Source of the DNA: a virus
Reading direction: 5' to 3' (one strand)
Length of the DNA stretch: 42,358 nt
IMG/VR virus record: IMGVR_UViG_3300022198_003066
Span: 1-42,358 of that record
The notes under the pieces were generated by a model. It did no database searches. It was not told the origin of the DNA and was given only the letters and a program-made list of their open reading frames with translations. The translations under genes were made by a program, and so were the position numbers. Positions within the stretch are counted from its first letter, which is position 1. Every line of letters begins with the position of its first letter. Shown here in pieces: positions 2,201 to 36,464 of this stretch.

Positions 2201-4977
2201 GCGTTGAATACTTTCTATGTGTTGAGGGCTTGGGTTGGCCGACTGACATTAGCGATTTAACACAAGGCTTCAGCGGTACCGTTTTTGCGACTGGAGATCT
2301 TAACGGAGACTTGGCGACGGTGCTAGGTTGCACAGTCAAGTTGGGACTGAACCTACCGCGCGGAATCTCAGAACAGATGGATCCCAGAACGCTAGAGTAT
2401 AGCTCCGGCTCTATGTCATTCTCAGTTTTAGACGTGGATGATTTTCTTCAAACTAACGTCAGACCGCACGCAGAAGGCAAAACAGGCAAGCTCAACACCG
2501 ACACTGGAAACCTAGCAGGCACGATTCGGATCGATAATGCGACAACGACCTTTGATTCAGGGGAAACCATTTGGGTCGGTGGTCGTGAAGCAATGCGTCT
2601 CAATTCGAAATCGTTAGTCAGCGGAACCGTCTATCAATACGGAGTGACTAGAAACTACCTAGGCACGCCGCGCGGTAGAAAGTCCAAGTCGCCTTTTGGT
2701 TCAGGTAGTTTCCGCGCCGGGTTTACTTGGAAACAGAACACCGTGATCACACAGTACAACCGCTACTGGTTTGACCGTCGCGTTTTGCTATTCACGCATG
2801 TTCCCGGCGAGACTGTAGGCAATGTGGATCGGCTGTACACTGGACGCCTAAGAACTATCAAGCTCGCCGATCAAGGTATCGTGTATCAACTCGGGACAAC
2901 CTCAGAGACTGTAGACAAGAACCACACAACCTACACACCGCCCGGTGAGCTAGTAGTCGCAAATGTAGAAGACGTTGGAGACACTCAACTCATCAACCTT
3001 CCGGGCACGTCTGTTGACAGTCCCGTTTTAGACAACGAGCTAAACACTAGAAACACCGTCCGCATGGTGTCTAGATTCAAGATTACGGTTCAACCTAAAG
3101 ACGGTGGATCTGACATCTACACCCACTTTCAAGCCGCTTTCGCATATAACTACAGACGCGCAGCGGGCGGCACTGAAGGCGCTTTAAATCAAGCTTTTGC
3201 AGCGGGTGATCCTGAAAGACCTCAAGCTGTAGCAAGTGCGGGTCACTTGTTCCCTATTTTTAGCGTCATCAAAATAGGAAGCATGTTTACGCGGGCGATG
3301 GGAGACACCACAATCTGTCGTCCTGATTTTAACTCGTTTCAATGTGCGAAAGCCGCTTATGATTTAGGCGTCGGTCGCATAACAGAACTCCCGCAAGTTG
3401 GCGATCCTGTTATCTTCGGGCTAGATAACACCGTTGACGATATCAAAACGAATCGCTTCACCGTCAACAACGCTATCACTAAGAATCCGATCGATGTCCT
3501 ACTTTGCTTCTTAACGACAATGCCCACAGAGTTTGTCGTTGAAGACACTTCGGGATCGCCAGGCACAACAACCACAATCAACTTCGCGTCTACAATTGGG
3601 ACAGCTAATCAGTGGGTGGGCTACGCGCTACACGCGACCGAAGATTCAAACATCGGCGAAGCCCGCGTGATCGTGAGCAACACGACAACTTCAATCACTG
3701 TCGACGTCCCATTCAGCAACACGCCAACAGCGGCGAAAGAGTATCAAGTCAGAAACTCTATCTACGACGTTTTGCCGATTGGATGGGGTCTAGGCATTCC
3801 AAACGAGGAAATAGATATCTCTTCTTTTGAGACTGTGCGGAATACTTACCTAACAGAAGCGAGCCTAGGTAATTTCGCTTTGACACTGGACAAAGAGCTA
3901 GACCTTTGGGAGTTGCTGAAAGAGAACGTGGCGATTCCGTTCAATATCTTTCTGTTTCAAAAGAGAACAACAGGCAAACTTAGCTGCGAGTATGTCGCTG
4001 AAGTGGTCTCAAACTTCACCGCGACAACACTACCGACGATTTCTTCAAATGAGATTTTAGACTTGAGCCCGATTGATTTAGTCCCTAGATCTTCGGTGTC
4101 GCACATTGCGATCGAAACACGCAACGCAAATCAAAGATACATATCAGCGGGCGGCGGTGTTGTTACTCAATACAGAACGGGCACTAATCCATTTGTAGAC
4201 AACAAACACGAGCACACGATCACGATTAGGTCAGACGAACTAGACAACGTGTTTGATGATTCTATTTTGGGATCTCTTAAGTTCTCAGCAAAGCTAAACG
4301 ACACAAACTCAATCGCCGACCTTAGCGCGCGGATGATTAGCAGACTGAGACGAGAAGCTAGACCCGCGCCGGAGGTTGAGATCTCCCTTGATATTAGCCG
4401 TTTCAAAACACTACAGGTTGGGCAACTAATCAAAGTCACAGACACCGACACGTTTAAGCCTTTCAACCCGTATTCAGGGACGCGGGGTTTTAACTCAGTT
4501 GTCTGTCGAATCATTAGTTTGAATATGGAACTTGAAGGCACGCCTAGGATGCGTCTCAAGTTGCAAATCTTAAACGAAGCGAACACCGCGTTGATCGCGC
4601 CCGCGTGTGTCGTCACCGCCTACAGTTCGGGAACATTCACAATTGACGTTTCGCAATTTGCTCAAGAAGGCGGCGAGTCTTGGGACTCGTTGTTTGTGAA
4701 TGACCGTCTCGAATTGAGAGACAAGAACGGGGCACTTAAAGGATCAACCTATGTGATCTCAAGCTTCGGTGCTAATACGTCTCCGCTTCCTTCTGGCGCA
4801 AGTACGGACACAATCAACATCACCACATCACCTAGTCTCACAATTGCGACAGGTGACTATCTAACTTTTGCGCCCTATTCTGGGTCGAACACAACGAACA
4901 TGGATCAGTACGCCGCCTATGCGGACTCTACGACCGAACTACTAACCGGCGGCGATGCTGCGAAAGAGTTTGTGTAA
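2197..4977 (+). CDS. Large tail-tip protein, possible baseplate hub
   Basis: The 926-residue product begins at a GTG inside the GTGA overlap with the preceding gene. It is predicted mostly beta-stranded, with many Thr, Asn and Asp residues, and has no transmembrane segment. Length and position (second gene after the tape measure) fit a hub or tail-associated protein that holds the tip together and contacts the host surface. No lysozyme, peptidase or lectin motif could be picked out. Residues 600-790 look like a compact domain (VPRSSVSHIAIETRNAN followed by an SLKFSAKLNDT region), as in hub-type proteins, but this is impression rather than proof. The end overlaps the next ATG by one base. Confidence 0.55.
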   Translation: MSVEYFLCVEGLGWPTDISDLTQGFSGTVFATGDLNGDLATVLGCTVKLGLNLPRGISEQMDPRTLEYSSGSMSFSVLDVDDFLQTNVRPHAEGKTGKLNTDTGNLAGTIRIDNATTTFDSGETIWVGGREAMRLNSKSLVSGTVYQYGVTRNYLGTPRGRKSKSPFGSGSFRAGFTWKQNTVITQYNRYWFDRRVLLFTHVPGETVGNVDRLYTGRLRTIKLADQGIVYQLGTTSETVDKNHTTYTPPGELVVANVEDVGDTQLINLPGTSVDSPVLDNELNTRNTVRMVSRFKITVQPKDGGSDIYTHFQAAFAYNYRRAAGGTEGALNQAFAAGDPERPQAVASAGHLFPIFSVIKIGSMFTRAMGDTTICRPDFNSFQCAKAAYDLGVGRITELPQVGDPVIFGLDNTVDDIKTNRFTVNNAITKNPIDVLLCFLTTMPTEFVVEDTSGSPGTTTTINFASTIGTANQWVGYALHATEDSNIGEARVIVSNTTTSITVDVPFSNTPTAAKEYQVRNSIYDVLPIGWGLGIPNEEIDISSFETVRNTYLTEASLGNFALTLDKELDLWELLKENVAIPFNIFLFQKRTTGKLSCEYVAEVVSNFTATTLPTISSNEILDLSPIDLVPRSSVSHIAIETRNANQRYISAGGGVVTQYRTGTNPFVDNKHEHTITIRSDELDNVFDDSILGSLKFSAKLNDTNSIADLSARMISRLRREARPAPEVEISLDISRFKTLQVGQLIKVTDTDTFKPFNPYSGTRGFNSVVCRIISLNMELEGTPRMRLKLQILNEANTALIAPACVVTAYSSGTFTIDVSQFAQEGGESWDSLFVNDRLELRDKNGALKGSTYVISSFGANTSPLPSGASTDTINITTSPSLTIATGDYLTFAPYSGSNTTNMDQYAAYADSTTELLTGGDAAKEFV

Positions 4978-9201: not shown

Positions 9202-9555
9202 ATGAGAAGAACAGACATTGACACACTACTAGAAGAGAATGACGCGGAAGAGTACTGCGTAGAAGACATGATGATCGACACACCGCCGATGATTGTCGCA
9301 AATGCGGACTTGATGGAGATGCAACGAATCGTTGAAGAGCTAGAAGCCGACGATCTCTTTGAAGATGTCTACCATGCCGCGCGCTATCACTACGCGAGAT
9401 GGTGCAACGATAGCGATACGGGATCCCTAGCGTACTGGTTCGCAGAACACAGCGTTTCCCGCACCGCCTACTTGGACCTACGAACCAAGGTGATCGAGAG
9501 GTGTCAGAATGAGATTAACGAGCACATGAAGTACTTTGAAGAAAACGACCGCTAA
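9202..9555 (+). CDS. Acidic early protein of unknown function, 117 aa
   Basis: The start ATG follows AAGGATTAGCAAA. The product is strongly acidic, with Asp and Glu clusters through residues 1-55, and helical; it lacks Cys-pair or catalytic motifs. Acidic small phage proteins can mimic DNA or bind basic host proteins, but this is only a possibility. It sits between the antirestriction gene and the clamp-like gene and shares their intergenic architecture. Confidence 0.5.
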   Translation: MRRTDIDTLLEENDAEEYCVEDMMIDTPPMIVANADLMEMQRIVEELEADDLFEDVYHAARYHYARWCNDSDTGSLAYWFAEHSVSRTAYLDLRTKVIERCQNEINEHMKYFEENDR

Positions 9556-11981: not shown

Positions 11982-12547
11982 TGGATCTCGTAACAGCACA
12001 AAAGACTTGTAAGCAGATGAAGAAAGATTCGGACGCATGGATCGAAGTCATCGACGGTTTTCAAATTGAGAACGCAGAACACGCGGAACTTGCGTCTGAG
12101 TGTTTGAAAGAACTCAAAGAGAAGCTAGACCTTGTAGAAGAAACTAGAACCGGAATCACTAAGCCGTTGCTTGAAGCTAAGCGGAAGGTTGATGCGCTGT
12201 TCAAGCCGGTTACGACTAGTCTCAAAGCGAGCCTAGACACATTGCGCGGTAGGCTTGGCAAGTACACCGCACAACAACGGGAAGAGGCGCAACGCCTACT
12301 AGCGGAAGCGTCTCAATCTGAACCTGAGGAAGCGGCTGCGTTAGTTGCTGCGAGCAACAGAGCCAAAGCAGAAGCGCCAAGCGTTCGAGAGGTTTGGCAA
12401 TTTGAGATTGAAGATGTGAGCAAGCTTCCTTCTCAATTCTTGATACCAGATGAGAAGGCGATCGGTGCGGTTGTCCGTTCTCAAAAGGGGAACGCCAAGA
12501 TCCCAGGGGTCAAGGTATTCGTAGAGCATAGAGCGGTGATCAAATAG
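11981..12547 (+). CDS. Conserved-type phage coiled-coil protein, possible recombination accessory
   Basis: The start is ATG 11981, overlapping the upstream TGA by one base, rather than a GTG nine bases earlier. The 188-residue product has a long helical region (res. 1-125, KELKEKLDLVEETRTGITKP and similar) and a C-terminal beta segment: VREVWQFEIEDVSKLP, then IPDEKAIGAVVRS, then IPGVKVFVE. That C-terminal pattern is familiar from phage proteins of unknown function that often sit near recombination or replication genes. A role in DNA recombination is inference from that memory only. Confidence 0.55.
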   Translation: MDLVTAQKTCKQMKKDSDAWIEVIDGFQIENAEHAELASECLKELKEKLDLVEETRTGITKPLLEAKRKVDALFKPVTTSLKASLDTLRGRLGKYTAQQREEAQRLLAEASQSEPEEAAALVAASNRAKAEAPSVREVWQFEIEDVSKLPSQFLIPDEKAIGAVVRSQKGNAKIPGVKVFVEHRAVIK

Positions 12548-12877: not shown

Positions 12878-13126
12878 TCAGACGGTTTCCCAGTCCGTCC
12901 CGATCTCCGTCTCAGGCACAATCTTGAATAGTATTCTACCCCTGAGTAGATATTTAGCTACCGGCGTGGTTTCCGAGATCTTCTGAATGTGCCGATAGAT
13001 CGTGCGTTCGCTGGTCTCAAGTTGAGACGCCAAGAACTCTATAGTCTTTGCCGATTCGGTTAGCATCTCGACAAGCTTGTAGAACTTTTCTTCGTTTCGT
13101 TTTGCGCCAGAACCAATGCCGCCCAT
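12878..13126 (-). CDS. Small HTH DNA-binding protein
   Basis: The 82-residue product has a helix-turn-helix pattern at about residues 27-51 (TIEFLASQLETSERTIYRHI), resembling the HTH_11 or DeoR-type winged-helix N-terminus, with a beta C-terminus that could be the wing. It is the last gene of the leftward replication operon; its ATG directly abuts the upstream TAA, with GAAGAGG as ribosome site. It probably regulates transcription. It is one candidate for binding the palindromic motif spread over the genome, but no direct link is visible. Confidence 0.65.
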   Translation of the reverse strand: MGGIGSGAKRNEEKFYKLVEMLTESAKTIEFLASQLETSERTIYRHIQKISETTPVAKYLLRGRILFKIVPETEIGTDWETV

Positions 13127-17760: not shown

Positions 17761-18969
17761 TCAGAACGTAGCCCGCACAACACGCACCGCACGCGCGGTT
17801 AGTTCGTCTTGTAGTTCTTGGAAGAGTCGCGATTTGCTATCCACGTAAAAACTACCGTCAAGCGGTTCTTCGTCTACGTACTCTTTGAACGCTTCAACGA
17901 GATAGGCTGAACCCTTGCCGTATTCCGCAAGCTTGTAGTGTGCGAGCCCGTGCTTAGTTGCGGCGCGTTCTGCGACTTCAAGTAAAACGGTCTCTAAGCT
18001 TTGGACGCTCTCACCTATAGGTAAGCAACCAACGTAGAGATTGAACCAACTTGAGTCGGTGCGCGTTGTTGTTGCTGTTGTTTCCGGTTCGCTAGTGACA
18101 ACCGGCGCGGGTTGTTCTTGTTTCTTTGGTCGTCCTCTTTTGCGCTTCGGCGTCTCTTCAACCACTGGCGCGGCTTCTATGATCTCAGGCTCGGCTGCGT
18201 CTGGCGGGTTGATTCCTTTTGCGACGACTTCGGGTTGTTGTTTCTGGCTTGCTCTCTTTAGCTTCTCAAAGATATCAGACATCTTTTCTTCTTCTCCATA
18301 GTTGTCGCAACGGTCCTTGAACGGACAACCGCCAAAGGCGTTGCAGTGGTTCAAATTGCGAGGAATCCCCCTAGCGTCCGTGCTTATCTCGCGCAAGATA
18401 GAGACCGAACGAGACCGTTCTAGAATATCATCGAACGCGGTGTCAATCTCGGACCTAGAAACTTTTACCTCTACTTTGAACGCTTCTGGCGTTGTCGTCC
18501 GATAATAGACCCAGCGCAATAATAGGCTAGATGCGTTAGGTACGCGATCGAAAATAGTTGCGGCGTAGACTATCGCCTGAACGTCTCTACGTAGCTTTTC
18601 AGGGGTCAAAGCATAGTAGGGGTTCTTCGTTGTTTTGTGGTCTATGACTAGTGGGATCTCGCCGGTTAGATCAACGCAATCGATGTAGCCTCGAAAGCCT
18701 TTGAACTCAAAATAGGATTCAACTTCTAAGTCTTTCGACGGCTTTGGTAGGTATTCGATACCAGGCGCGAAGATAGCGCCAGGTTTTGATTTGAGATCTG
18801 GAAACGTGCCAGACGACAACCACGCTTCCGCGCACGTGTGAACCTCTGTACCTAATTGAGTTGATGCGGTTGCCGGTTGCCGCAAGCCTTCAATGTAGGT
18901 GAAGCCCCATTTACGATTGCACGATTCAAAGGTTTTGAATTGAGACGCACTCAAGAGATGATCGGACAT
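17761..18969 (-). CDS. PD-(D/E)XK exonuclease with Fe-S cysteines and an AT-hook
   Basis: The first 225 residues of this 402-residue protein match the RecB/Cas4-type nuclease family: GTEVHTCAEAW (40-50), GYID with D97, IDHK with D110 and K112, and Q131. C17 with C209, C215 and C221 form the pattern that binds a 4Fe-4S cluster in AddB/Cas4 nucleases. A Pro/Glu-rich linker follows, with an AT-hook core RKRGRPKK (276-283) that would bind the minor groove of AT-rich DNA. Residues 305-402 form a separate domain of unknown type. It probably processes DNA ends for recombination or replication. It overlaps the primase gene by 19 bases; AGCGGGAGCGTTAGC gives the ribosome site. Confidence 0.82.
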   Translation of the reverse strand: MSDHLLSASQFKTFESCNRKWGFTYIEGLRQPATASTQLGTEVHTCAEAWLSSGTFPDLKSKPGAIFAPGIEYLPKPSKDLEVESYFEFKGFRGYIDCVDLTGEIPLVIDHKTTKNPYYALTPEKLRRDVQAIVYAATIFDRVPNASSLLLRWVYYRTTTPEAFKVEVKVSRSEIDTAFDDILERSRSVSILREISTDARGIPRNLNHCNAFGGCPFKDRCDNYGEEEKMSDIFEKLKRASQKQQPEVVAKGINPPDAAEPEIIEAAPVVEETPKRKRGRPKKQEQPAPVVTSEPETTATTTRTDSSWFNLYVGCLPIGESVQSLETVLLEVAERAATKHGLAHYKLAEYGKGSAYLVEAFKEYVDEEPLDGSFYVDSKSRLFQELQDELTARAVRVVRATF

Positions 18970-21335
18970 GCTAACGCTCCCGCTATTGTTTCAAAATCTT
19001 CTTCATCACAGAACCCGTGCGCGTCTGCCCATTGCGCTACGTGATCAATCCGAAGCTGTCTAAATTTGACACGACGCGGACCAACGCGCAAACGCATGGT
19101 TTGACCCGTTGTGATGGTGTTTAGAGCGTTTCCGATCTGGCGAGTCCCTAACGGTTTAACGTTCGGCAAGTACGCTTCCCAGACTTCCGCAAACACTTGA
19201 GCGTTGACCCAGATCACGCCGTCGTCGTCTCGTTGGATGTATTGCCGCGCCTTGGTGTTGTTGTAGTACGGTTCAGGCTCAAGAATCAGACGCGTTAAAA
19301 TCTCAGTTAGAGACGACGACCGATCGTTGTTGTTGAGTAGGCGCGAGCCCATTGAACCTAAGTCACCCTCAACTAAGAAACGACGACCACGCTCAAATTC
19401 GCGATTGTCGGCCAAATACAAGCAATGCTCGGCGATTGCGTAAGAAGCCCAACGCGCTAGTCGTTCGGGTTGAATCGTTTTGAGATAGAGTCCCGCGTCT
19501 TCTTTCACCTCGATAACTAGGAAGCGTTGCGCGAGTGCTGCGACGTCGTCGTTGGTTGGATCACCTGGTAGCTTGATCAAGTTGCCAGTGTTCGCGCAAA
19601 GCATGAGACGGATCGAACCAACTAGGCGCGCGTTCGCTTTGTACTTACCGCCGATTGTGATCGAGCGTGTTGAAATGAGATCACGCAACTTGCCGGAGAT
19701 GTTCCGGTCGTCTGGCACATATTCGTCGGCGAGTACCAGCGGCGCGCGGCTTAGGTCTTCGTTGAATTCGCTGAATGCGACTTCAATCGGCGTTGGTTGT
19801 TGTGCTTCCCAGATACGCGCTAAACCGTTAGCTAGGAACGATTTCCCAACGTTTGGCGCTCCGTAGAGATAGAGACCGCAACAGGGATCTTCAAGCTTAG
19901 GCACGCACGCGATCCAGTCTAGTAGTTTCTCTTTGAGACGACCGCCTAAGTGTTCAAGCCAAAGATGAACGTCTGGATGAAAGCGGGGTTCAAGCGTCCG
20001 ATCACGCGGGGCGGTAGCCAGCGTGATCGTGTTGCGCTCGCTGTCATAATGAGACGCCGCCGCAACTAGGCTTGCTTCGGTATTGCTCGCAAACGTGCCG
20101 TACTGTGAAAGCAACGCATCGCGCGTCTTTCGCTTGTCTCCAAAGTACGTCGTCACATTGGGAATCGGCTTGAGGTAAAGATCGGCAAGCGTGTTTGCGT
20201 ATTCGCGCGGGAACGGTCCCTGGTAGCCTTTCAAGTTGAGAAAATACACGCTTGAAGGTGAGTAGATGATCCAACGCGTGCGCAGTTCTTCTTTCTGTAT
20301 GCCGCACGACGTCGCAATATGCTCTAGCTCTTCCGGCGTGTATTCGTGGCCTTCATCGTCTCCGCGTGCTTCCGACATTCGGCTCTCTTTGTTCTTTGCT
20401 TGCGATTCTTGCTTGTAGCGTAATGCGCGCGGGAGTTTGTTTGTGGCGATGTCGTCCATAGTGCCGAGCACACCGCGCGGCTCTAAGCTTGCGAGTTGAT
20501 CCATACTGACAAGCGAAGGGCGGAAGAGTTGCGCCGCTTGTTCTGGATTCAAGCTAGGGTGACGATATGCAAGCTCTACGCAAATTGCGAAAATCACACC
20601 GTCACGCTCGCCAGGATTCGCAAAGACCTTGCCGCGTGAAAGCTTGTCGAACGTATCGCCAAGCGCGCGCTTTTTCTCATCGTGAGAACGACGGAGCGAT
20701 TGGCTAATGCGTTTGAGGTCTTCGATTTCTAAAACGGCTGAACCCGCGAACTTTGGCGCGTTCACGTGAGTAGGCGTTAAATCGCCGCTAGGTAGGCTCA
20801 GAAGCCAGTCTAGCGCGATCCATTGTCCCGTCGCATTATGGAAAGCCGTTGCGTGCTTGGCGTTCGATTCGGCGGTCGAGTGTGCGTAGTAGATCCGGCT
20901 GATGTTCTTTGTGTTCGCGTCGTTGTGGCCGCCTATAAAGTGATTGAACTTGTGCCACGCGTCAGCGTGTCGTTCGGGCGGTAATGGCTTGTCGAGAGGA
21001 AACACCGCGCGGAGTTTATAAAGGCCGTCGTCTGGATTGTGGCGGTGCGTTGTGTACCAGAATGATTCGTAGTCTTTGGTCGCTTGCTGAACGTGCTCTA
21101 TGACTTTGAGCGTTGTCGCGTCTATGTCTAAACAAAGCGCGTCAAGATAGGACACCGCTTTGTCGTTGCGGTGGGCTCCGTTCTCAATGTGACCCGGAAT
21201 AAAGCATGGGCCGTCTTTGCCGCCAGAAGTGCGACAATCGCCCAAACGCGTGATCCAGTCATCCCACGTTAGAGTCTGAAGTGTGGTCTTAGTATCGCCA
21301 GCACACCGATAGAGAGAGAAAGACAGTCGTCTCAT
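18951..21335 (-). CDS. Primase-helicase (AEP primase plus SF3-like helicase)
   Basis: The 794-residue product has an N-terminal archaeo-eukaryotic primase-like domain: LCLDIDA with D70 and D72, YKLRAVFPLDKPL (106-118) and ISRIYY with R147. The C-terminal part is an SF3 helicase of the D5/virus type: Walker A GAPNVGKS (492-499), Walker B LVLADE (533-538), and motif C MLCANTGN with N582. Proteins of this build unwind the origin and lay down primers. It is the first gene of the leftward replication operon, nearest the proposed origin, and is the best candidate for the initiator that loads there. ACGGGGGCAAT precedes the ATG. Confidence 0.88.
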   Translation of the reverse strand: MRRLSFSLYRCAGDTKTTLQTLTWDDWITRLGDCRTSGGKDGPCFIPGHIENGAHRNDKAVSYLDALCLDIDATTLKVIEHVQQATKDYESFWYTTHRHNPDDGLYKLRAVFPLDKPLPPERHADAWHKFNHFIGGHNDANTKNISRIYYAHSTAESNAKHATAFHNATGQWIALDWLLSLPSGDLTPTHVNAPKFAGSAVLEIEDLKRISQSLRRSHDEKKRALGDTFDKLSRGKVFANPGERDGVIFAICVELAYRHPSLNPEQAAQLFRPSLVSMDQLASLEPRGVLGTMDDIATNKLPRALRYKQESQAKNKESRMSEARGDDEGHEYTPEELEHIATSCGIQKEELRTRWIIYSPSSVYFLNLKGYQGPFPREYANTLADLYLKPIPNVTTYFGDKRKTRDALLSQYGTFASNTEASLVAAASHYDSERNTITLATAPRDRTLEPRFHPDVHLWLEHLGGRLKEKLLDWIACVPKLEDPCCGLYLYGAPNVGKSFLANGLARIWEAQQPTPIEVAFSEFNEDLSRAPLVLADEYVPDDRNISGKLRDLISTRSITIGGKYKANARLVGSIRLMLCANTGNLIKLPGDPTNDDVAALAQRFLVIEVKEDAGLYLKTIQPERLARWASYAIAEHCLYLADNREFERGRRFLVEGDLGSMGSRLLNNNDRSSSLTEILTRLILEPEPYYNNTKARQYIQRDDDGVIWVNAQVFAEVWEAYLPNVKPLGTRQIGNALNTITTGQTMRLRVGPRRVKFRQLRIDHVAQWADAHGFCDEEDFETIAGALACPIIS

Positions 21336-21541
21336 ATTGCCCCCGTTTGAATGTTAGTAGTTGCGCAAGGCCGGACGCTATGCCGGGCGGTGTGGCATTG
21401 TCAACGATTGTCAGAATGAGAGCACCGCGGAGTCGATGAAAGCGGAATGCTATTTGGCCGAATATGTGAATTCGATCGTCTTTGGAAAATAAGATTTTTG
21501 GTTTTGGCTTATTTGGACAAATAACGATTTTGGCGTTTAGT
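21336..21541. other. Non-coding leader of the replication operon
   Basis: No credible gene is present. The stretch holds a TGTCA-GAA-TGAGA copy of the genome-wide motif (21409-21421) and, on the minus strand, a perfect TTGACA (21404-21399). A TAGCGT 18 bases further is a poor -10, so this is only a possible leftward promoter. The part near 21490-21535 is rich in A and T runs. Confidence 0.4.
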
Positions 21542-21875
21542 GGGTTCCTAACAATTACAGACAGGAAAAGAAGTCTCACAATGAAATCACAGGTTTAGGC
21601 GGGGGTTGGACGCTGGACATTTACTGAAAATATTAGGATCCCAGTTCGCGTCCAAAAAAGCTTATTGTTTCTAGGGGTTTATGCTGCTGGGTTCCTAATA
21701 ATGGGCAAAATGGGAAAACTCGGCTGAAATTTCGTGTTAATTACTTGATTAAAGTTTCACGGAAGTTTTGGTCGTTTTTCGCTCGTTAGGATCCCACCCT
21801 ACTTAGTTTCCCAAAATGATTAAGGAAAAACTGGTCCTAATAATTTGAGTGTTAGGAACCCGGGATCCTAATAAT
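21542..21875. repeat. Seven copies of GGGWTCCTAAYAAT in both orientations
   Basis: Forward copies are at 21542-21555, 21689-21702, 21832-21844 (one base short) and 21862-21875. Inverted copies are at 21631-21643, 21785-21796 and 21851-21861. The last pair lies head-to-head and forms a near-palindrome (GTTAGGAACCC with GGGATCCTAATAAT). Copies were not noticed elsewhere in the window. The clustering and mixed orientation suggest a DNA-binding site for a replication or transcription protein. Confidence 0.6.
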
Positions 21876-21879
21876 GGGA

Positions 21880-21909
21880 TTTAATTCGATTTAATTCGAT
21901 TTAATTACG
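21880..21909. repeat. AT-rich 10-bp tandem repeat, possible unwinding element
   Basis: TTTAATTCGA occurs twice in tandem (21880-21899) and a third, changed copy follows (TTTAATTACG). AT-rich repeats next to iterons are typical of the DNA-unwinding part of iteron origins. Confidence 0.55.
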
Positions 21910-21943
21910 CAATAAATACGGTGGCGGCGTTGAGTATTCATAG

Positions 21944-22494
21944 TCGCAAATTGACAGAATTGCGAGACGGTCGCATTATGAGACGTCTCAAAATAAAAAA
22001 GCGCGTCGCGTTCTGCGACGTCATCGCAGAATGATACACGTCGCAGATTGACACGGTGTAGCGTTATGCGAACGCGTACCAATATGAGACCGGCGTGTCC
22101 TATTCTGAGTCGTGACCTGTTTTGAAAATTAGCAAACCGAGACACGGCGTCTCAGTCTGAGACGCGGTAGCGGAATGAGACATGTAGCGTTATGCGAAAC
22201 GGGCCGGGGGGTGTGTGTAGCATTATGACAATCATTGTCATTATGAGACGCATATGAGACGCAGAAGCAAAGTGCTACATGTAGCGTTCTGCGAACGCGT
22301 CGCATTTCGATACGGCGTCGCATTATGAGTCGTGTAGCATTATGAGTCGTGTAGCATTATGCAAACCGTGTAGCGTTTTGCTACGCCGTCGCATTATGAG
22401 TCGTGTAGCATTATGCAAACCGTGTAGCGTTTTGCTAATTCGCAAAGTGCGACCGCGTCCTATTTTGGGAAAAGTACCGGTCGCAAAATGAGCC
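21944..22494. repeat. Iteron-like array of dyad motifs, candidate replication origin
   Basis: About 25 imperfect copies of a dyad, GTMGCR-N3-TGMGAC in outline, fill 550 bases. Left half-sites start at 21944, 21971, 22006, 22024, 22041, 22059, 22077, 22098, 22130, 22150, 22168, 22185, 22218, 22236, 22265, 22282, 22300, 22318, 22335, 22352, 22371, 22389, 22406, 22425, 22440, 22458 and 22481. Spacing is mostly 17-19 bp. GTCTCAGTCTGAGAC at 22149-22163 is a perfect palindrome. A block of units is duplicated (22317-22384 and 22388-22437, the first copy having one extra unit). Placed between divergent operons and beside an AT-rich triplet, it resembles an iteron origin; a multi-site operator is the alternative. 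Confidence 0.65.
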
Positions 22495-22624
22495 GCCGGT
22501 CGGCACACCAACAACGATCAGATTTCAGACACTTCTTATTTCGTGTCTCATATTGACAGGTAATAATAAAGGGCGGGGGTCTTTTTGAGATTTAACTTAG
22601 AGGTGGGGGGTATGAAAATTCCGG
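22495..22624. other. Non-coding spacer upstream of the late promoter
   Basis: No gene seen. It holds one motif copy, TCTCA-TAT-TGACA (22546-22558), and a G-rich stretch (22571-22580, 22603-22610). Confidence 0.35.
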
Positions 22625-22637
22625 TCGCAATTTGACA
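22625..22637. promoter_or_regulatory. Operator-like motif over the terminase promoter
   Basis: TCGCA-ATT-TGACA matches the genome-wide dyad. Its right half is the end of the TTGACA -35 box at 22632-22637. A protein bound here would block or help RNA polymerase at the late promoter. Confidence 0.5.
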
Positions 22638-22659
22638 ACTTACAGGATCACGCTTTAAT
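22632..22659 (+). promoter_or_regulatory. Promoter upstream of the terminase genes
   Basis: TTGACA (22632-22637) and TTTAAT (22654-22659) are 16 bases apart: a perfect -35 and a five-of-six -10. Transcription would start near 22666, with AGGAGG (22676-22681) and ATG 22691 following. It is the best sigma-70 promoter seen in the window. Confidence 0.65.
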
Positions 22660-22690
22660 GATAAGATCCCCAAGTAGGAGGAAGTTCATA

Positions 22691-23182
22691 ATGAGTCACA
22701 ATGAGTGGGAACGATACCCGAACGAAACGACTAAGTCCTATGACTTGTTCATTCGGTTTCTCGATATGGGACCACGTCGCAACTTGAGAGAACTTGCCGA
22801 GCTAACAAAGGAAAAACATCACAAGATTCAAGCACTTAGCTCACGTTGGAATTGGAAGATCCGCGCGACCGCTTGGGATGATGAACAACACAAACGAAAG
22901 CAAGATGCTGAATTAGCAGAATGCGAAGAAATGGCGAAGCGGCATATTCGGATCGCAATGGGTCTTCAGATGAAAGGTCTTGAAGGTCTCAAGATGTTTG
23001 ATGATCAAGAGAAGCTTCGCAAAATGCGAACTTCAGATATCGTCAACCTATTCAAGTTGGGCGTCGATATTGAGCGCATGTATCGAGTTGCTCCAAACGA
23101 ACGTGTGCAAGAAGACAAGCCGGTTGTGATTAAGTTCGCGGTTGACGACGACGAAGATGAAGATTTCAGTACCGAAGAGTAA
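22691..23182 (+). CDS. Terminase small subunit
   Basis: ATG 22691 is chosen over an ATG at 22658, because AGGAGG lies nine bases upstream and the earlier ATG overlaps the promoter -10. The 163-residue product begins with W-E-R-Y-P-N-E-T-T-K-S-Y-D, then RNLRELAELT-type helix-turn-helix residues and RWNWKIRATAWDDE, a pattern common to phage small terminases. A helical middle and a very acidic tail (VDDDEDED) follow. It would recognise the packaging site and recruit the large subunit. The gene overlaps the large subunit by 26 bases. Confidence 0.72.
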   Translation: MSHNEWERYPNETTKSYDLFIRFLDMGPRRNLRELAELTKEKHHKIQALSSRWNWKIRATAWDDEQHKRKQDAELAECEEMAKRHIRIAMGLQMKGLEGLKMFDDQEKLRKMRTSDIVNLFKLGVDIERMYRVAPNERVQEDKPVVIKFAVDDDEDEDFSTEE

Positions 23183-24509
23183 ACTCACTTTGGGACAACG
23201 GCAATTCTTGGAATCTCAAGAACCCGTGATCCTAATGTCTGGCGGCTTCGGCTCCGGCAAGACAACTGCGCTTGCTCTCAAGTTGCTACAACTCAAAGCT
23301 AGCAACCCAAACGTGCCGGGATTGCTTATTTCGCAATCTTACAAGTCACTATGGGCGATCTCGTTCAGACGGTTGATGAGCATTCTGCGACTCAGCTTGC
23401 CAGCGGACAAGATGCCGCAAGTTGTTGATCGTCAAGGTGAATGCTACCTAGACTTTGGAGACGGTGTGCCGGTCTTCCTACGTTCAGCCGTCAACCCGGA
23501 CTCAATCGATGGTCTCGATGTGGGATGGCTTCTAGGTGATGAGCTTAGACACTGGCCACAGCATACTTACGAGGTAGCACTTGGACGTGTGCGCGCAAAG
23601 TGCGACAAGCCGCAAATCGCGTTTGCGTCTACGCCCGAAATGCACTGGATGGCAGAAGAGTTCAACACAAGCAAAAGAGGCAGACAGCTAATCATTGCGC
23701 CAACGTCGCAGAATGAAAAGAACCTAGCGCCGGGCTTTATAGATAATCTCAGATTGAGCTACAGCCCACGATTGCAGAAAGCCGTGATCGACGGTTACTT
23801 CACAATCTTAGAGGGTGCCGTATATGAAGCCCTAGACCCTGATTTCTACAATTCTAATCACGCGATAGAGTACAACCCAAAACGATACTTGGACCGCAAG
23901 ACCTATCTAGCGGTAGATCCCGGTTTTAGACGTAGCGCGTATCTTTGGATTCATGAAGTTGCGCCTATGGAATGGGTCGTCTTTGATCAAGTGATGCCGG
24001 AACACATGTCAGACGCTCAGTGTGTTGAAATGGTAAATAACAGAGGTTGGCCGATTGACGAGATATGGTGCGACCCAGCCGCCGACAATACTCAATCCGC
24101 AATTGGGATTGATACGGTTACAATGCTGCGCGGTATCAGAACGAGATCACGCACACCGATTCGATACATCACAGGAATCTTCCGCGCGATTCCGTTTGGT
24201 GTTGATAAGACCAGAACGCTACTGGGTGATCAGAATCTCAAATCGCCCATCAGAATCAAATTCGCAAAACGCCTAGAAGACATGGAAAGGTCAAAGGCTC
24301 GCGGCATTGTGCGAGACTTGCTAGGATACCGGTATCCCGAAATGAAACACGGGCAACCGGTAGGAAACCTACCATTCAAAGACGGACTTACAGATCACAG
24401 CGTTGATGCGCTGCGTTATTGGGCGGTGGGTATGTGGCTCACTTCGGGATTGAGAGAACTTGATCCCATAATGAAAACAACAAACACAGGCTACAAGGTG
24501 GCAGCATGA
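23157..24509 (+). CDS. Terminase large subunit
   Basis: The 450-residue packaging motor is taken from the ATG at 23157; a TTG at 23142 is also possible, and neither has a clear ribosome site, so coupling to the small subunit is likely. The ATPase has Walker A GGFGSGKT (29-36) and Walker B WLLGDE with D128 and E129. The RNase H-like nuclease has D254 (LAVDPGF), D306 (IWCDPAAD) and D413/D417 (DHSVDALRYW). It cuts concatemers and drives DNA into the prohead with ATP. The length is normal for a compact terminase. It ends in an ATGA overlap. Confidence 0.93.
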   Translation: MKISVPKSKLTLGQRQFLESQEPVILMSGGFGSGKTTALALKLLQLKASNPNVPGLLISQSYKSLWAISFRRLMSILRLSLPADKMPQVVDRQGECYLDFGDGVPVFLRSAVNPDSIDGLDVGWLLGDELRHWPQHTYEVALGRVRAKCDKPQIAFASTPEMHWMAEEFNTSKRGRQLIIAPTSQNEKNLAPGFIDNLRLSYSPRLQKAVIDGYFTILEGAVYEALDPDFYNSNHAIEYNPKRYLDRKTYLAVDPGFRRSAYLWIHEVAPMEWVVFDQVMPEHMSDAQCVEMVNNRGWPIDEIWCDPAADNTQSAIGIDTVTMLRGIRTRSRTPIRYITGIFRAIPFGVDKTRTLLGDQNLKSPIRIKFAKRLEDMERSKARGIVRDLLGYRYPEMKHGQPVGNLPFKDGLTDHSVDALRYWAVGMWLTSGLRELDPIMKTTNTGYKVAA

Positions 24510-28006: not shown

Positions 28007-28118
28007 CAGTGAAAATGTTGAATCTCAAGACGAAACTCCAGTTTCTGAAGCGGGAGAAGAGTCGCAAACTGAACAAGTCGAATATCGACATGGACTACCT
28101 AGAAAGCGTAAGATTTGA
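27999..28118 (+). CDS. Small 39-aa protein between gpF-like and methyltransferase genes
   Basis: The ATG follows AACAGGGAGACTA, giving GGGAG as ribosome site. The product is acidic for 30 residues and ends in a basic LPRKRKI. It overlaps the gpF-like gene by eight bases and the methyltransferase start by four (TTGA). This double overlap and the ribosome site suggest a real coupled gene, perhaps serving to bring ribosomes to the TTG start downstream. Confidence 0.5.
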   Translation: MADSENVESQDETPVSEAGEESQTEQVEYRHGLPRKRKI

Positions 28119-29767
28119 ACAATATCGAAGAAATCTCAATTTCAGAATTATCCTTTGATCCGTCAAATGTTCGCAGACACAGCAACCGCAACATTGACGC
28201 GATCAAGGATAGCCTGAACGCGTTTGGTCAACAGCGACCGATCTTGGTTGATCGTCGTGGTGTCGTGCTTGCCGGCAACGGAACCATGGCAGCGGCTAAG
28301 GCGTTAGGCTGGCAGACCATTCGCGTTTTGAGATCTGAACTAGAAGGCGCGGAAGCTATCGCCTATGCGATAGCAGACAACCGAACCGCTGAATTAGCAG
28401 AATGGGATCAAGAGGGTTTGCTTCGGCAACTCAACGCGCTACAGATAGAGAGTGAAGACCTTTTCAACGCGTCCGGGTTTGAGATGTCAGACCTTGACGC
28501 GTTGATCTCAGATCTAGATGAGAGGTTAGACGATGCCGAAGCATTCCAAGAAGACGACCAAAATGGGATCGAAGAAGACTGGGACCAAAGCCCCGACATC
28601 GTACAAGCCCAAACTCAGAAAGGGGAAGTGATCGAAATAGGCTCACAGACGGTCGTCTGTGCTGACTGTATCGAAACGATATCACAACTCCCTGACAACT
28701 CTGTCGACTCAATTTGCACCGATCCTCCCTATGGGATCGGCTTCATGGGGAAGGGCTGGGATTGCTCCGTACCTGGCTCAGACTTCGCACAACAAGCGTT
28801 TCGCGTTTTGAAACCTGGCGGACATATCGTAGCTTTCGCCGCAACGCGTACCGTTCACCGTCTAACCGTCGCACTTGAAGACGCGGGTTTTGAGATTCGC
28901 GATTTGATATCGTGGCTTCAATGGCAAGGCTTCCCGAAATCAATGGACATCTCAAAAGCGTTTGACGCGTCTGTAGGCGCGGAGCGTGAGGTTTTGCAAA
29001 CTAAGACAGGACCGAAGCCGGGCACGCATGGCGGCTCAGGTAAGTACGGACACGGCGAAGATCGAAGCATCACAGCGCCAGCGTCCGATCTTGCGAAACA
29101 ATGGAACGGGTGGGGGACTGCTTTGAAGCCAGCGCAAGAACCCGCGATCCTAGCACGCAAACCGCTAGAGGGTACGCTTGTCGATAACTTCTCAAAATGG
29201 GGCGTCGGTGGTTTGAACATAGACGCAACGCGGATCCCATTTGGAGATCCAGCGTGGCCCGGTCCGCAAGGACATGAAGACCTAGACGCAAAGCAACGGC
29301 AACAAAGCACGCCAAGTATCAATGTGAGATCAACCGCACCGGGTCAGGTTTACGATATGTTCAAAGAGAATGGACGTTGGCCAGCGAACATTTACTACTG
29401 CCCAAAGCCGTCGCGAAACGAAAAAGAAGAAGGCTGCGATGATCTCCAAGGAATGAGTGGTGCTGATGCAGTGAGTCGCAAAGAGGGATCTGCCGGTATG
29501 AACAACCCGCGCGCGGGTGCTGGACGAACCGCGTCGCACGTTGCGAATCATCACCCAACCGTGAAGCCTGTTAACCTCATGCGGTGGTTGTTGCGTCTCA
29601 TTACGCCAAAGGGCGGCAAGGTCTTAGAGCCGTTTGCCGGTAGCGGCACAACGCTTGTCGCAGCACAGCTAGAGGGCTTTTCATGCTACGGCATAGAGCG
29701 CGAACCGTCCTATTGTGATATTATACGGGCAAGGGTAAAACATGCCGTGGGGGATCACGATGTTTAG
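28115..29767 (+). CDS. ParB-like domain fused to DNA methyltransferase
   Basis: The 550-residue protein starts at a TTG overlapping the 39-aa gene. Residues 1-110 form a ParB/Srx-type domain (ISELSFDPSNVRRHS, QQRPILVD, VLAGNGTMAAAKALG, then AIADNRTAE). Residues 170-550 form an amino-methyltransferase with the DPPY motif first (203-206) and the FAGSG AdoMet motif last (507-511), the beta-class order for N6-adenine or N4-cytosine methylases. It probably modifies phage DNA against restriction. Its place inside the head operon means methylation would occur late, before or during packaging. The target sequence is unknown. Confidence 0.88.
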   Translation: MNNIEEISISELSFDPSNVRRHSNRNIDAIKDSLNAFGQQRPILVDRRGVVLAGNGTMAAAKALGWQTIRVLRSELEGAEAIAYAIADNRTAELAEWDQEGLLRQLNALQIESEDLFNASGFEMSDLDALISDLDERLDDAEAFQEDDQNGIEEDWDQSPDIVQAQTQKGEVIEIGSQTVVCADCIETISQLPDNSVDSICTDPPYGIGFMGKGWDCSVPGSDFAQQAFRVLKPGGHIVAFAATRTVHRLTVALEDAGFEIRDLISWLQWQGFPKSMDISKAFDASVGAEREVLQTKTGPKPGTHGGSGKYGHGEDRSITAPASDLAKQWNGWGTALKPAQEPAILARKPLEGTLVDNFSKWGVGGLNIDATRIPFGDPAWPGPQGHEDLDAKQRQQSTPSINVRSTAPGQVYDMFKENGRWPANIYYCPKPSRNEKEEGCDDLQGMSGADAVSRKEGSAGMNNPRAGAGRTASHVANHHPTVKPVNLMRWLLRLITPKGGKVLEPFAGSGTTLVAAQLEGFSCYGIEREPSYCDIIRARVKHAVGDHDV

Positions 29768-30895: not shown

Positions 30896-31153
30896 ATGGT
30901 TCGCAAGGTTGTTCGATATTGCAAAGTCGGTAGACTGGAACCCAACGTGCGGGAGATCTATCCGTCGCAATATGCGAACAAGCCTTTATATCAACCGGAT
31001 CGCGTGTCTTGTTCTGACGTGAACACTGAGACAGAGACACGGTCTATATACTGCCAGCAATGCGCGGCTCCGATTGAAGATAGTTCCGAATTAGCAGAAT
31101 GTTGGTTTTGCGAATCGGACAACTTTTTAGGTAGAGACTACAACCGTAGATAA
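30896..31153 (+). CDS. Small zinc-ribbon protein, 85 aa
   Basis: It starts three bases after the scaffold stop codon. The C-terminal half has CQQC and CWFC pairs (IYCQQCAAPIEDS, then AECWFCESD), forming a four-cysteine zinc ribbon. The N-terminus is basic. It is the second small Cys-pair protein in the head operon. The function is not known. The dyad motif TCGCA-ATA-TGCGA lies within the gene (30965-30977). Confidence 0.5.
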   Translation: MVRKVVRYCKVGRLEPNVREIYPSQYANKPLYQPDRVSCSDVNTETETRSIYCQQCAAPIEDSSELAECWFCESDNFLGRDYNRR

Positions 31154-33713: not shown

Positions 33714-36464
33714 ATGGTAATGCCCAAAGACATAGCCAGGAGCTATCCAAAGCGCGGATTGACGGCGGATGTAGGTTTTCGGAGTGAGCCTACTTTTGTA
33801 GGTGACGGGTCGGTTTATTTCGATGGTTCGTCCGATTATGCGGAAACCGCAGCAAGTTCAGACTTGGCGGTTGGTGACACCTTCACGTTGACGGCTTGGG
33901 TTTGGTTGAATCCTAATCCCAGCGGATCGTCTAAGTATGCTTTCAGAGTAGGCGACACTGGCGCTCCGGTTCCTCACATTGCATCAATCGGAGTCTTTGG
34001 CGGCGCGAACCCAGGCTTTTATTGCTACAATGGCTCGGGCTCTATGTCGTCATCGGTTACTTGTGATTCTGCTCGATGGTATCATGTGGCATCGGTGATT
34101 AAGTCAGGTGCGGGCAACTCTCAACTCTTTGTTGATGGGATCGATGTAACCAACTCTCACTCAGTGGTATTTAACGTCACATCAGCATCGTCTAAAATTA
34201 GGATCGGCGATTGGAATACTGGCGGAAACGACTGGGAAGGCTACATCGCCAACGCTTGCCTATTCACCGAAAGCCTGACCGAAGCCCAAGTACGCCAAGT
34301 AATGCGTGCGTCCGATTATGCGAGCCATGCCGCAATCTCTACAGTGGAAGCATTCTACCCACTATCGGCAGACTTCAACGACTCGACCGGTAGCCATAAC
34401 GCTACACTAACCGGCTCGGTATCCTTTGGCGTCAACCGCCCCCAACTCCCACGCGGTCTCGATTTGGCACGCGGCGCGGCAATGGCGCGAGTGTATACGG
34501 GCAGGTGCGTTGACTTCGACGGCTCAACTGACTTTCTCGATATGGGAACCGGCGTTGATAAGAATTATACAACCCGGTCAGACCGTGCGAGTTTCTCAGT
34601 TTGGTTTAACACCGATCAAACTTCCATACCGGCTTTTATTTATCAGAATAGGACGCAAATAGTCACCGATCGCCCGGAGTGTGAGACCCATTTGTTTATT
34701 ACCACAGCACAAGGGTTGACTTTCGACGGCGAAGGTGCAGCTGTTCTCATTCCCATAACGAATTTGACAATCGGTAAGTGGCATCATTTTGTGGGCATTG
34801 CGGATGATACCGACGGACCGATCAAGGCTTATCTTGATGGGGTTCTTTATGACACCATAAGCCCTCCGCAAGCTGGCGCAAATGGTAGCGAGCTTTGCAT
34901 AGGCGCTCGAAACAATGCACCGGTTCAAGTCTTCAACGGTCAGCTTTCAAACTTTAAGATCTTCAACGTCGAGCTAACTCAAGACCAGGTTCGCGAGCTA
35001 TACCACAATCCCGAAATGATAATCCCTACCGGCGTAAGTGCCAACAACCTACGGCGTCATTATCCGCTCTGTGCATACAATGACACCGGCGGCATGGGCG
35101 GGCGTTATGAGATTGACCAAGGCGTCGAAGGTGTAAATGGTGAATATGGTGGCTCTCCGGTGATGGCCTTCGCTCAACCCGTACCGTGTCCGCAATTGGG
35201 ATTGCAGCAGAGTGCGACGCGGGTATATTTCGAGAACAATGCGACCAGAGCAGACGCAACCCTTGGCGCGGCTCCCGGCACTACTTGCACAATGTCGGCT
35301 TGGGTGATGGTGGAGAGCACCGGAAATTACCAATACATTTTCACCCAGGGGACAAGTGCCGCTGCAATCGCTTGGTTCGGGATTGCTAAAAACAACTCGG
35401 ATAACAAACTATACACCTTGCAAGGTGGTGTAATTGCAGCGTACTCCAGTCTTCAATTAAGTGGCTATGGTGAATGGAATCACGTTGTCGCTATGACGAA
35501 ATCGACTGCGCCTTATGTGCGTTTCTTTATCAATGGCGTTGAAGATACATCCATCAACGACATTAGTATGGCTGCTTACAATTTAACAAGTACCAGTGTC
35601 TCAATCGGCGGCAATCCGGTTTATGCCAACCACACGCAAGGCTTCCTAAACGACTGCGCAATTTGGGACGTGGAGTTGAGCGACCCTGAGGTGGCTTCTC
35701 TGTACAACTCCGGCGTTCAGGGTATGGACGTATCGACGGTTCAATCTGCGAATCTCAAGGGCTGGTGGAAGTGTGATGACCTTACGAGTTTTAAGGACTA
35801 CAGCGGTAACGGTGTTAACGCTACATTGACGGGTTCTGTTGTCGCCGCATCCTTCCCCGAAAACGCCAGCGGCTCGACTATCGTCGGTGACTTCTCGATG
35901 AAACGGAAGGGTGTGAGCGTTTTGAATGCCCCAGGCAGCGGAAGAGCTACGCTTGCGGCAAACTCTAGCCTCTTGCCTACAACTGGCGGCGGATACACAC
36001 TCTGTGCTTTTGTGCGACTCCAATCGACCAATGACGACGCGGCGGTCATTATGTCCACGTCTACCGGCGTCAATGAATGGGGTACATTCTACGAAGGCAG
36101 CACAAATAAGTACAAGATTGTGCTCTCAGACGGCACCACAAACATTTTAGATAGAGCATTTAGCGGGACTGTTACGGATTCGGAATGGCATCACATCGCA
36201 TGGACCATTCAGCTTGATGCAACAACGGCAACCGGCGAAACCTATATTGATGGCACTCCTGATTTGTCCTTCACGCGGTCATCTTTCAACACTCCGCCAA
36301 CGCCTAGCGAGTTCGCGATTGGGTACGACCCCGGCAACGCTGATAAGCAAGCTAATGCGGCGATTGCCTGTTTACGTATCTATCAGAGCGTTTTGTCCGC
36401 CAACGAAATTAAGCAAGTGTATTCTTCCGACCTTCGTCTCATAAAAGGATTAGAAAATGAGTAG
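33714..36464 (+). CDS. Four-domain LamG / concanavalin-like adhesin
   Basis: The 916-residue protein has four LamG-type lectin domains starting near residues 33, 264, 502 and 733. Each opens with a V-x-F-D/E-G-like strand, contains an S/T-A-W-V or S-V-W-F strand and an FVDG/YLDG/FING/YIDG turn, and ends in a helix of the type LTEAQVRQVM, LTQDQVRELY or LSANEIKQVY. Such domains bind glycans or proteins. It is likely a receptor-binding fibre or head-surface adhesin. It lies far from the tail-tip genes, just after the capsid genes. Strict copies of the genome-wide dyad are absent within it, which would fit later acquisition, though this is weak. No strong ribosome site precedes the ATG. Confidence 0.8.
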   Translation: MVMPKDIARSYPKRGLTADVGFRSEPTFVGDGSVYFDGSSDYAETAASSDLAVGDTFTLTAWVWLNPNPSGSSKYAFRVGDTGAPVPHIASIGVFGGANPGFYCYNGSGSMSSSVTCDSARWYHVASVIKSGAGNSQLFVDGIDVTNSHSVVFNVTSASSKIRIGDWNTGGNDWEGYIANACLFTESLTEAQVRQVMRASDYASHAAISTVEAFYPLSADFNDSTGSHNATLTGSVSFGVNRPQLPRGLDLARGAAMARVYTGRCVDFDGSTDFLDMGTGVDKNYTTRSDRASFSVWFNTDQTSIPAFIYQNRTQIVTDRPECETHLFITTAQGLTFDGEGAAVLIPITNLTIGKWHHFVGIADDTDGPIKAYLDGVLYDTISPPQAGANGSELCIGARNNAPVQVFNGQLSNFKIFNVELTQDQVRELYHNPEMIIPTGVSANNLRRHYPLCAYNDTGGMGGRYEIDQGVEGVNGEYGGSPVMAFAQPVPCPQLGLQQSATRVYFENNATRADATLGAAPGTTCTMSAWVMVESTGNYQYIFTQGTSAAAIAWFGIAKNNSDNKLYTLQGGVIAAYSSLQLSGYGEWNHVVAMTKSTAPYVRFFINGVEDTSINDISMAAYNLTSTSVSIGGNPVYANHTQGFLNDCAIWDVELSDPEVASLYNSGVQGMDVSTVQSANLKGWWKCDDLTSFKDYSGNGVNATLTGSVVAASFPENASGSTIVGDFSMKRKGVSVLNAPGSGRATLAANSSLLPTTGGGYTLCAFVRLQSTNDDAAVIMSTSTGVNEWGTFYEGSTNKYKIVLSDGTTNILDRAFSGTVTDSEWHHIAWTIQLDATTATGETYIDGTPDLSFTRSSFNTPPTPSEFAIGYDPGNADKQANAAIACLRIYQSVLSANEIKQVYSSDLRLIKGLENE

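Follow-up and report, generated by a model that had tools for sequence, protein, structure and literature searches.

Gene layout and the dense dyad array

The window analyzed here, meaning the whole 42,358-bp stretch of DNA, is an IMG/VR record of a tailed phage. Its tape-measure frame seems to be open across both contig ends, which would fit a near-complete genome with circular permutation. A leftward replication operon on the minus strand (12.9-21.3 kb) starts with a primase-helicase gene (D5-type, DUF5906; 18951-21335) and also encodes a PD-(D/E)XK nuclease, a helicase, a DNA polymerase A and a RuvC-like resolvase; the gene for a small HTH protein (82 aa, HTH_11; 12878-13126, minus strand; PF08279, E=2e-7) lies at the operon end. 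The rightward operon on the plus strand opens with the terminase small subunit (22691-23182; phrog_6299, E=1e-21), whose start is the ATG after AGGAGG, followed by the terminase large subunit (23142-24509). Further along the plus strand, a ParB_N-like domain is fused to an N6/N4 DNA methyltransferase (28115-29767). Additionally, positions 33714-36464 encode a structural protein with four laminin-G-type (Laminin_G_3) domains that is likely host-binding. GATC occurs at about twice the level of shuffled sequence both in the window (346 vs. 181) and in contig G003 (241 vs. 120), and the palindromes TTGATCAA and GTGATCAC are over-represented in the window.

Between the two operons, and closer to the terminase genes, lies a dense array of imperfect dyads of the type GTCGCA-N3-TGMGAC. 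An earlier note on this DNA had described about 27 phased dyads, and the count obtained here agrees: 28 units (KTMKCA-N3-TGMNAM) score above 5 bits at 21943-22494, or 30 when two stragglers are included, with centres mostly 17-20 bp apart and many at 17-18 bp. Shuffling the array region yielded a mean of 1.9 dyads and a maximum of 7 in 300 shuffles. Outlying dyads are found at 22545-22559 (GTCTCATATTGACAG) and at 22624-22638 (GTCGCAATTTGACAA), the latter 53 bp 5' of the start codon of the small terminase gene. The reported TTTAATTCGA triplet is present as two exact direct repeats and one variant at 21880-21909, in a stretch that is 63% AT over 21860-21940, and is a possible candidate for an unwinding element. 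The partial duplication described for 22317-22437 was likewise recovered, in that the block contains a 50-bp near-copy (22334-22383 vs. 22388-22437, 98% identical). No DNA match was found between the array region and named phages.

The gap between the operons also contains a repeat family that is unrelated to the dyad, GGGWTCCTAA, with six exact copies in both orientations, all at 21542-21871; allowing at most one mismatch gave 10 matches compared with a mean of 2.2 in shuffles. They form a separate operator-like family, and because they occupy the primase side of the gap, the dyad array belongs rather to the terminase half. The placement of the array beside the primase-helicase gene in the earlier note was correct for the left neighbour but left out the right one, the terminase small subunit.

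Dispersed dyads throughout the genome

The array is genuine, but the dyads are not the local feature that they were first taken for, as the same dyad is found across the whole genome (1-42358), mostly within genes and with the consensus KTCKCA-WWW-TGMGAM. A matrix refined outside the array detects 344-348 dispersed sites above 7 bits, or 8.2-8.4 per kb (the count of 344 was taken outside 21400-22660), which corresponds on average to one 15-bp dyad per approximately 100 bases. Strong examples within genes are TTTCAAATTGAGA at 12059-12071 (17.3 bits) and TCGCAATATGCGA at 30965-30977 (17.1 bits). With the array removed, an unsupervised count of gapped words showed CTCA-N3-TGAG and CTCA-N2-TTGC to be some 20-fold more frequent than expected, and a motif scan of the window likewise recovered the dyad outside the array. 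The cleanest test applied a matrix built from array units only to the 39.9 kb of other genes; 216 sites exceeded 6 bits compared with 45.2±5.9 in synonymous shuffles, which preserve each protein and its codon usage. Only the 3-bp spacer was clearly enriched, with little or no excess at spacers of 0-2 and 4-8 bp and little excess for direct or everted orders of the half-sites. An artefact of codon or amino-acid usage is ruled out by the synonymous shuffles, the spacer controls and the decoy dyads described below. The array is thus the densest part of a single genome-wide system of symmetric sites.

Coding DNA holds 174 of 193 dispersed sites, and the density is higher in the scarce non-coding DNA. 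A dyad centred at -1 (TCTCAWWATGAGA) overlaps 12 of the 49 start codons, for which approximately 1.1 would be expected from flank shuffles; start codons inside dyads include those at 9202, 10325, 11446 and 39903. Array and dispersed sites differ somewhat at positions -4 and -5, leaving room for two proteins or two affinities.

Selection, spacing and symmetry

Selection on the dispersed sites was evaluated over an 11-kb stretch that the window has in common with its 98% relative, where the DNA identity is 91%. Within dyads, 22 of 346 third codon positions (6.4%) differed, vs. 571 of 3340 (17.1%) outside (Fisher, 2e-8). The resulting third-position rate ratio of 0.37 compares with 1.03±0.22 for 60 decoy dyads made from permuted columns, the lowest of which reached 0.57. 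The dispersed dyads are under purifying selection at synonymous positions.

The sites are also spread more evenly than chance would give. The variance-to-mean ratio of counts per 400 bp was 0.47 in the window (vs. 0.87±0.12) and 0.24 in the relative L026 (vs. 0.86±0.22), and few gaps between sites were shorter than 40 bp or longer than 300 bp; in G003 and G005, the dyads were not under-dispersed. A strict lattice or helical phasing of the dispersed sites was rejected, the pattern consisting only of short-range exclusion, a mild excess at 80-120 bp and evenness. Individual sites turn over while the density persists: between the primase genes of L026 and L032 (73% identical), 11 of 23 sites were co-located where 0.7 were expected, and since about half of the aligned sites have moved, single sites are dispensable.

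The earlier note had further suggested that changes in the right half of a unit mirror those in the left. The data contradict this, with matches at mirrored positions near or below the values for independence (in the array, for example, 12 vs. 12.2 and 15 vs. 13.6) and no mirrored covariation either within the array or among the 348 dispersed sites. As compensatory covariation between half-sites is lacking, an RNA or DNA hairpin was rejected; halves that vary independently point instead to a symmetric dimer that recognises the double-stranded DNA.

Occurrence in other phages

All of the dyad-rich records (given here by L and G numbers) are metagenomic and mostly fragments, and each relative's matrix was trained on the very sequence it describes, which does not apply to the array-to-genes test above. 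The dyad is carried by L021, a 98% relative, and by L026 and L027/L032, where identities in the primase, polymerase and ParB-methyltransferase are only 32-57%. Besides the window, it is distributed genome-wide in L026, L032, G003 and G005, the last with a gradient. At position -4 the consensus drifts to T in L026 and to C in L027, which would fit a co-evolving protein. The dyad is absent from L004 and L023, which have structural genes in common with the window, and from L028, L029 and L031, which have replication genes in common with it. The primase was rejected as the sole marker of the system, given that L030 and L031 have primase relatives without dyads.

Searching for dyad pairs at a distance of 60-90 bp revealed further carriers, G003 and G005 among them. 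Some loci from pattern scanning (L005, L009, L010 and others) were chance or simple-repeat matches. In the larger, unrelated contigs G004, G006-G009 and G012, the dyads form a single sharply bounded island of 6-12 kb that is mostly coding and holds three to four times the number in synonymous shuffles. The islands lie at 31-41 kb in G004, 53-58 kb in G006, 87-93 kb in G007, 63-69 kb in G008 and 137-146 kb in G012, and these five mostly adjoin genes for GP88 (PF17338) and DUF932.

Dense clusters adjoin the terminase genes in the window, L032, G003 and G005. At 4200-4620 of G003, about two dozen in-frame dyads encode a low-complexity SQSAN/LPQ stretch directly 3' of the large terminase gene. At 5700-6700 of L032, non-coding DNA beside the small terminase gene carries an imperfect tandem unit of approximately 137 bp with TTCACGCAGTGAA palindromes and dyads.

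No protein occurred in both the genome-wide and the island phages. A ParB_N-methyltransferase is the one protein present in all phages with genome-wide dyads (in the truncated G005, its methyltransferase part only), and it was rejected as the common binder because the island phages do not have it. The domain arrangement of this protein varies: the window and L026 have the fusion with an N6/N4 methyltransferase, and in L027/L032 a separate ParB-like domain (8384-8887 in L032) is followed by an m5C methyltransferase. GP88 was rejected since it occurs in G004, G006-G008, G012 and G013 but not in the small phages. The 82-aa HTH_11 protein had no PDB sequence match and an uninformative structure model, and relatives lack a homologue; it is an unproven candidate DNA binder on the strength of its predicted domain. 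The small terminase subunit is unlikely to be the common binder, as small terminase families differ while the dyad stays the same.

Comparison with known systems

Several described systems resemble the dyads in part. The stoperators of Cluster A mycobacteriophages (L5/Trixie) are 13-bp asymmetric sites, oriented with transcription and located at promoters and in short intergenic spaces, with about 20-30 per genome (PMC9283540, PMC6550527). Like them, the dyads are one short motif spread genome-wide with a consensus that drifts between related phages; unlike them, they are 15-bp palindromes within genes, evenly spaced at about 8 per kb, so that neither the asymmetry nor the promoter and intergenic placement of stoperators is found. 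The origins of lambda and Stx phages contain 4-6 iterons, all within the O gene (PMC7466680). A phased dyad array is a feature they have in common with the window, and nearly identical GTCGCA-N3-TGCGAC arrays are present in L011, L012 and L017, but the window combines approximately 30 intergenic dyads with about 340 genome-wide and encodes no O-like protein. In cyanobacterial host genomes, the HIP1 element is an ungapped octamer, GCGATCGC, that surrounds methylation sites (PMC4390886). It too is a palindrome strongly over-represented genome-wide with a suspected methyltransferase link, whereas the dyad is gapped, degenerate, phage-borne and evenly spaced; HIP1 itself is not notably enriched in the window (2 vs. 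0.8 expected). Stoperators, lambda-O origins and HIP1 each have one trait in common with the dyad system, and for each, at least one of the tested defining features was not found in it.

As in ParB/parS systems, the palindromes are clustered into a possible nucleation centre and a ParB_N-like domain is encoded. Those systems combine ParA with a ParB that has CTPase and helix-turn-helix domains. In the window, only a ParB_N match was seen, which is below the Pfam cut-off and fused to a methyltransferase, the dyad is sown across the genome, and no ParA was recognised among the window proteins scanned. The phi29 protein p6 is a genome-coating protein for which no fixed sequence motif is known; the proposed cover of the whole phage genome is similar, but in the window a defined dyad is under selection. 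No described equivalent of the genome-wide dyad system was found in the open-access literature. Judged on that literature, the novelty lies in the genome-wide system, the array by itself being of an ordinary iteron kind.

Interpretation

The evenness of the sites, their location in coding DNA, their indifference to gene class and the selection on their density together speak for a role in covering the DNA and against one in controlling particular promoters; this favours a sequence-specific nucleoprotein that extends over the phage DNA and nucleates at the array. Such a structure is the best explanation for the whole, held tentatively and at somewhat less than even confidence. A single DNA-binding protein, encoded by the phage or the host, would occupy each site as a symmetric dimer. 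It would load densely on the array, which is phased at 17-18 bp and flanked by the replication and packaging operons, and the dispersed sites at about every 100 bp would allow it to cover the remaining phage DNA. The coat may compact, shield or silence the DNA, or may label it as belonging to the phage for the start of replication, for packaging or for modification. The array would serve as a nucleation and control centre and perhaps also as a start of replication or packaging. In the larger phages, the same coat would be limited to one domain of 6-12 kb. The more specific form, a phage chromatin in which a dimer nucleates on the phased array and on even dyads written through synonymous choice, is plausible and advanced with greater reserve; so is its corollary that the whole genome or one domain is covered at approximately 100-bp intervals and phage DNA thereby separated from host DNA.

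The earlier note had read the array as an iteron-type replication origin. In its classical form, the primase-helicase or a small initiator would bind the array and open the DNA at TTTAATTCGA, the dispersed dyads being secondary. The P4 alpha protein binds the P4 iterons, and the 17-18 bp phasing, the adjoining AT-rich repeat and the replication operon beside the array are all in keeping with this. A scan for three dyads at 17 bp also detected 17-bp-phased GTCGCA/TGCGAC dyads, without genome-wide spread, in the O-like genes of the unrelated phages L011, L012, L013, L016 and L017: the array genes of L011, L012 and L017 are O-like initiator genes by PHROGs, that of L016 is O-like by anatomy with a DnaB-like helicase downstream, and a DnaC-like loader follows that of L017. 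The array units, with G at -4, are closer to these O-gene units than the dispersed sites are. What stands of the proposal is that an origin role for the array within a larger system is reasonable and possible, since essentially the same dyad serves as an iteron, with 17-bp phasing, in O-like genes elsewhere; the primase-helicase might act in place of an O-like initiator. The part that fares less well is the plain origin. Tandem phased repeats are present, but confinement to one region is absent, with about 340 further selected dyads elsewhere in the genome, and an O-like HMM built from L011, L012 and L017 gave no match in the window at E<=5. Fourfold-site GC skew does not differ between the arms (0.055±0.034 vs. 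0.033±0.026), with no switch apparent, the array abuts the terminase gene while the DNA upstream of the primase bears another repeat family, and L026 and L032 have few dyads and no dense array directly before the primase. As it leaves the selected genome-wide sites unexplained, the plain iteron origin is not sufficient and, as a complete account, is unlikely.

Silencing of everything is the nearest rival to the coat. A stoperator-like repressor at hundreds of dyads would block RNA polymerase, genome-wide or in one domain; even coverage would shut off all genes, the lineage-specific drift of a dispersed consensus has its parallel in Cluster A mycobacteriophages (PMC6550527), and the excess of start codons inside dyads also fits. 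Set against this, the dyads are palindromic, lie within genes and are more than 10 times denser than known stoperators, and no integrase or lambda-type repressor was present among the proteins scanned, which makes silencing rather improbable. A host-driven origin, in which the sites would match a DNA-binding protein of the host and serve as self-mark, protection or decoy, would account for the same consensus in unrelated phages without any common protein, these phages having converged. The drift at -4 between related phages is better suited to a phage-encoded partner, and Myxococcota, the phylum of a Myxococcales MAG with a primase relative, were rejected as a dyad-rich host with none of 189 sampled genomes dyad-rich, although this may not be the phylum of the host; the host-driven reading is considered quite doubtful. 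The location of the array beside the small terminase gene, as for pac sites, and the dense clusters that four phages have alongside their terminase genes would suit a pac region bound by the small terminase, with the dispersed dyads as weaker sites. This is very unlikely, however, given that the small terminase belongs to phrog_6299 in the window and phrog_309 in L026 with the same dyad, that L023 has an L026-like small terminase but no dyads, and that the islands of the large phages were not recognised as terminase loci. The nucleoprotein coat stays the preferred explanation at the tentative level given above.

Conclusions

Despite strong coding constraint, hundreds of 15-bp sites are kept within the genes of this phage through protected synonymous positions, with a spacing that suits coverage rather than particular genes, and no dispersed-site system of such form was found in the open-access literature. 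For genome annotation, the example advises caution, as an apparent iteron origin at one locus may be just the most conspicuous part of a system of sites that spans the genome. The dyad consensus offers a ready bait for its binding protein. If the proposed coat is real, a sequence-based cover would let phages distinguish their own DNA from that of the host, which would bear on packaging, evasion of defence and gene silencing.
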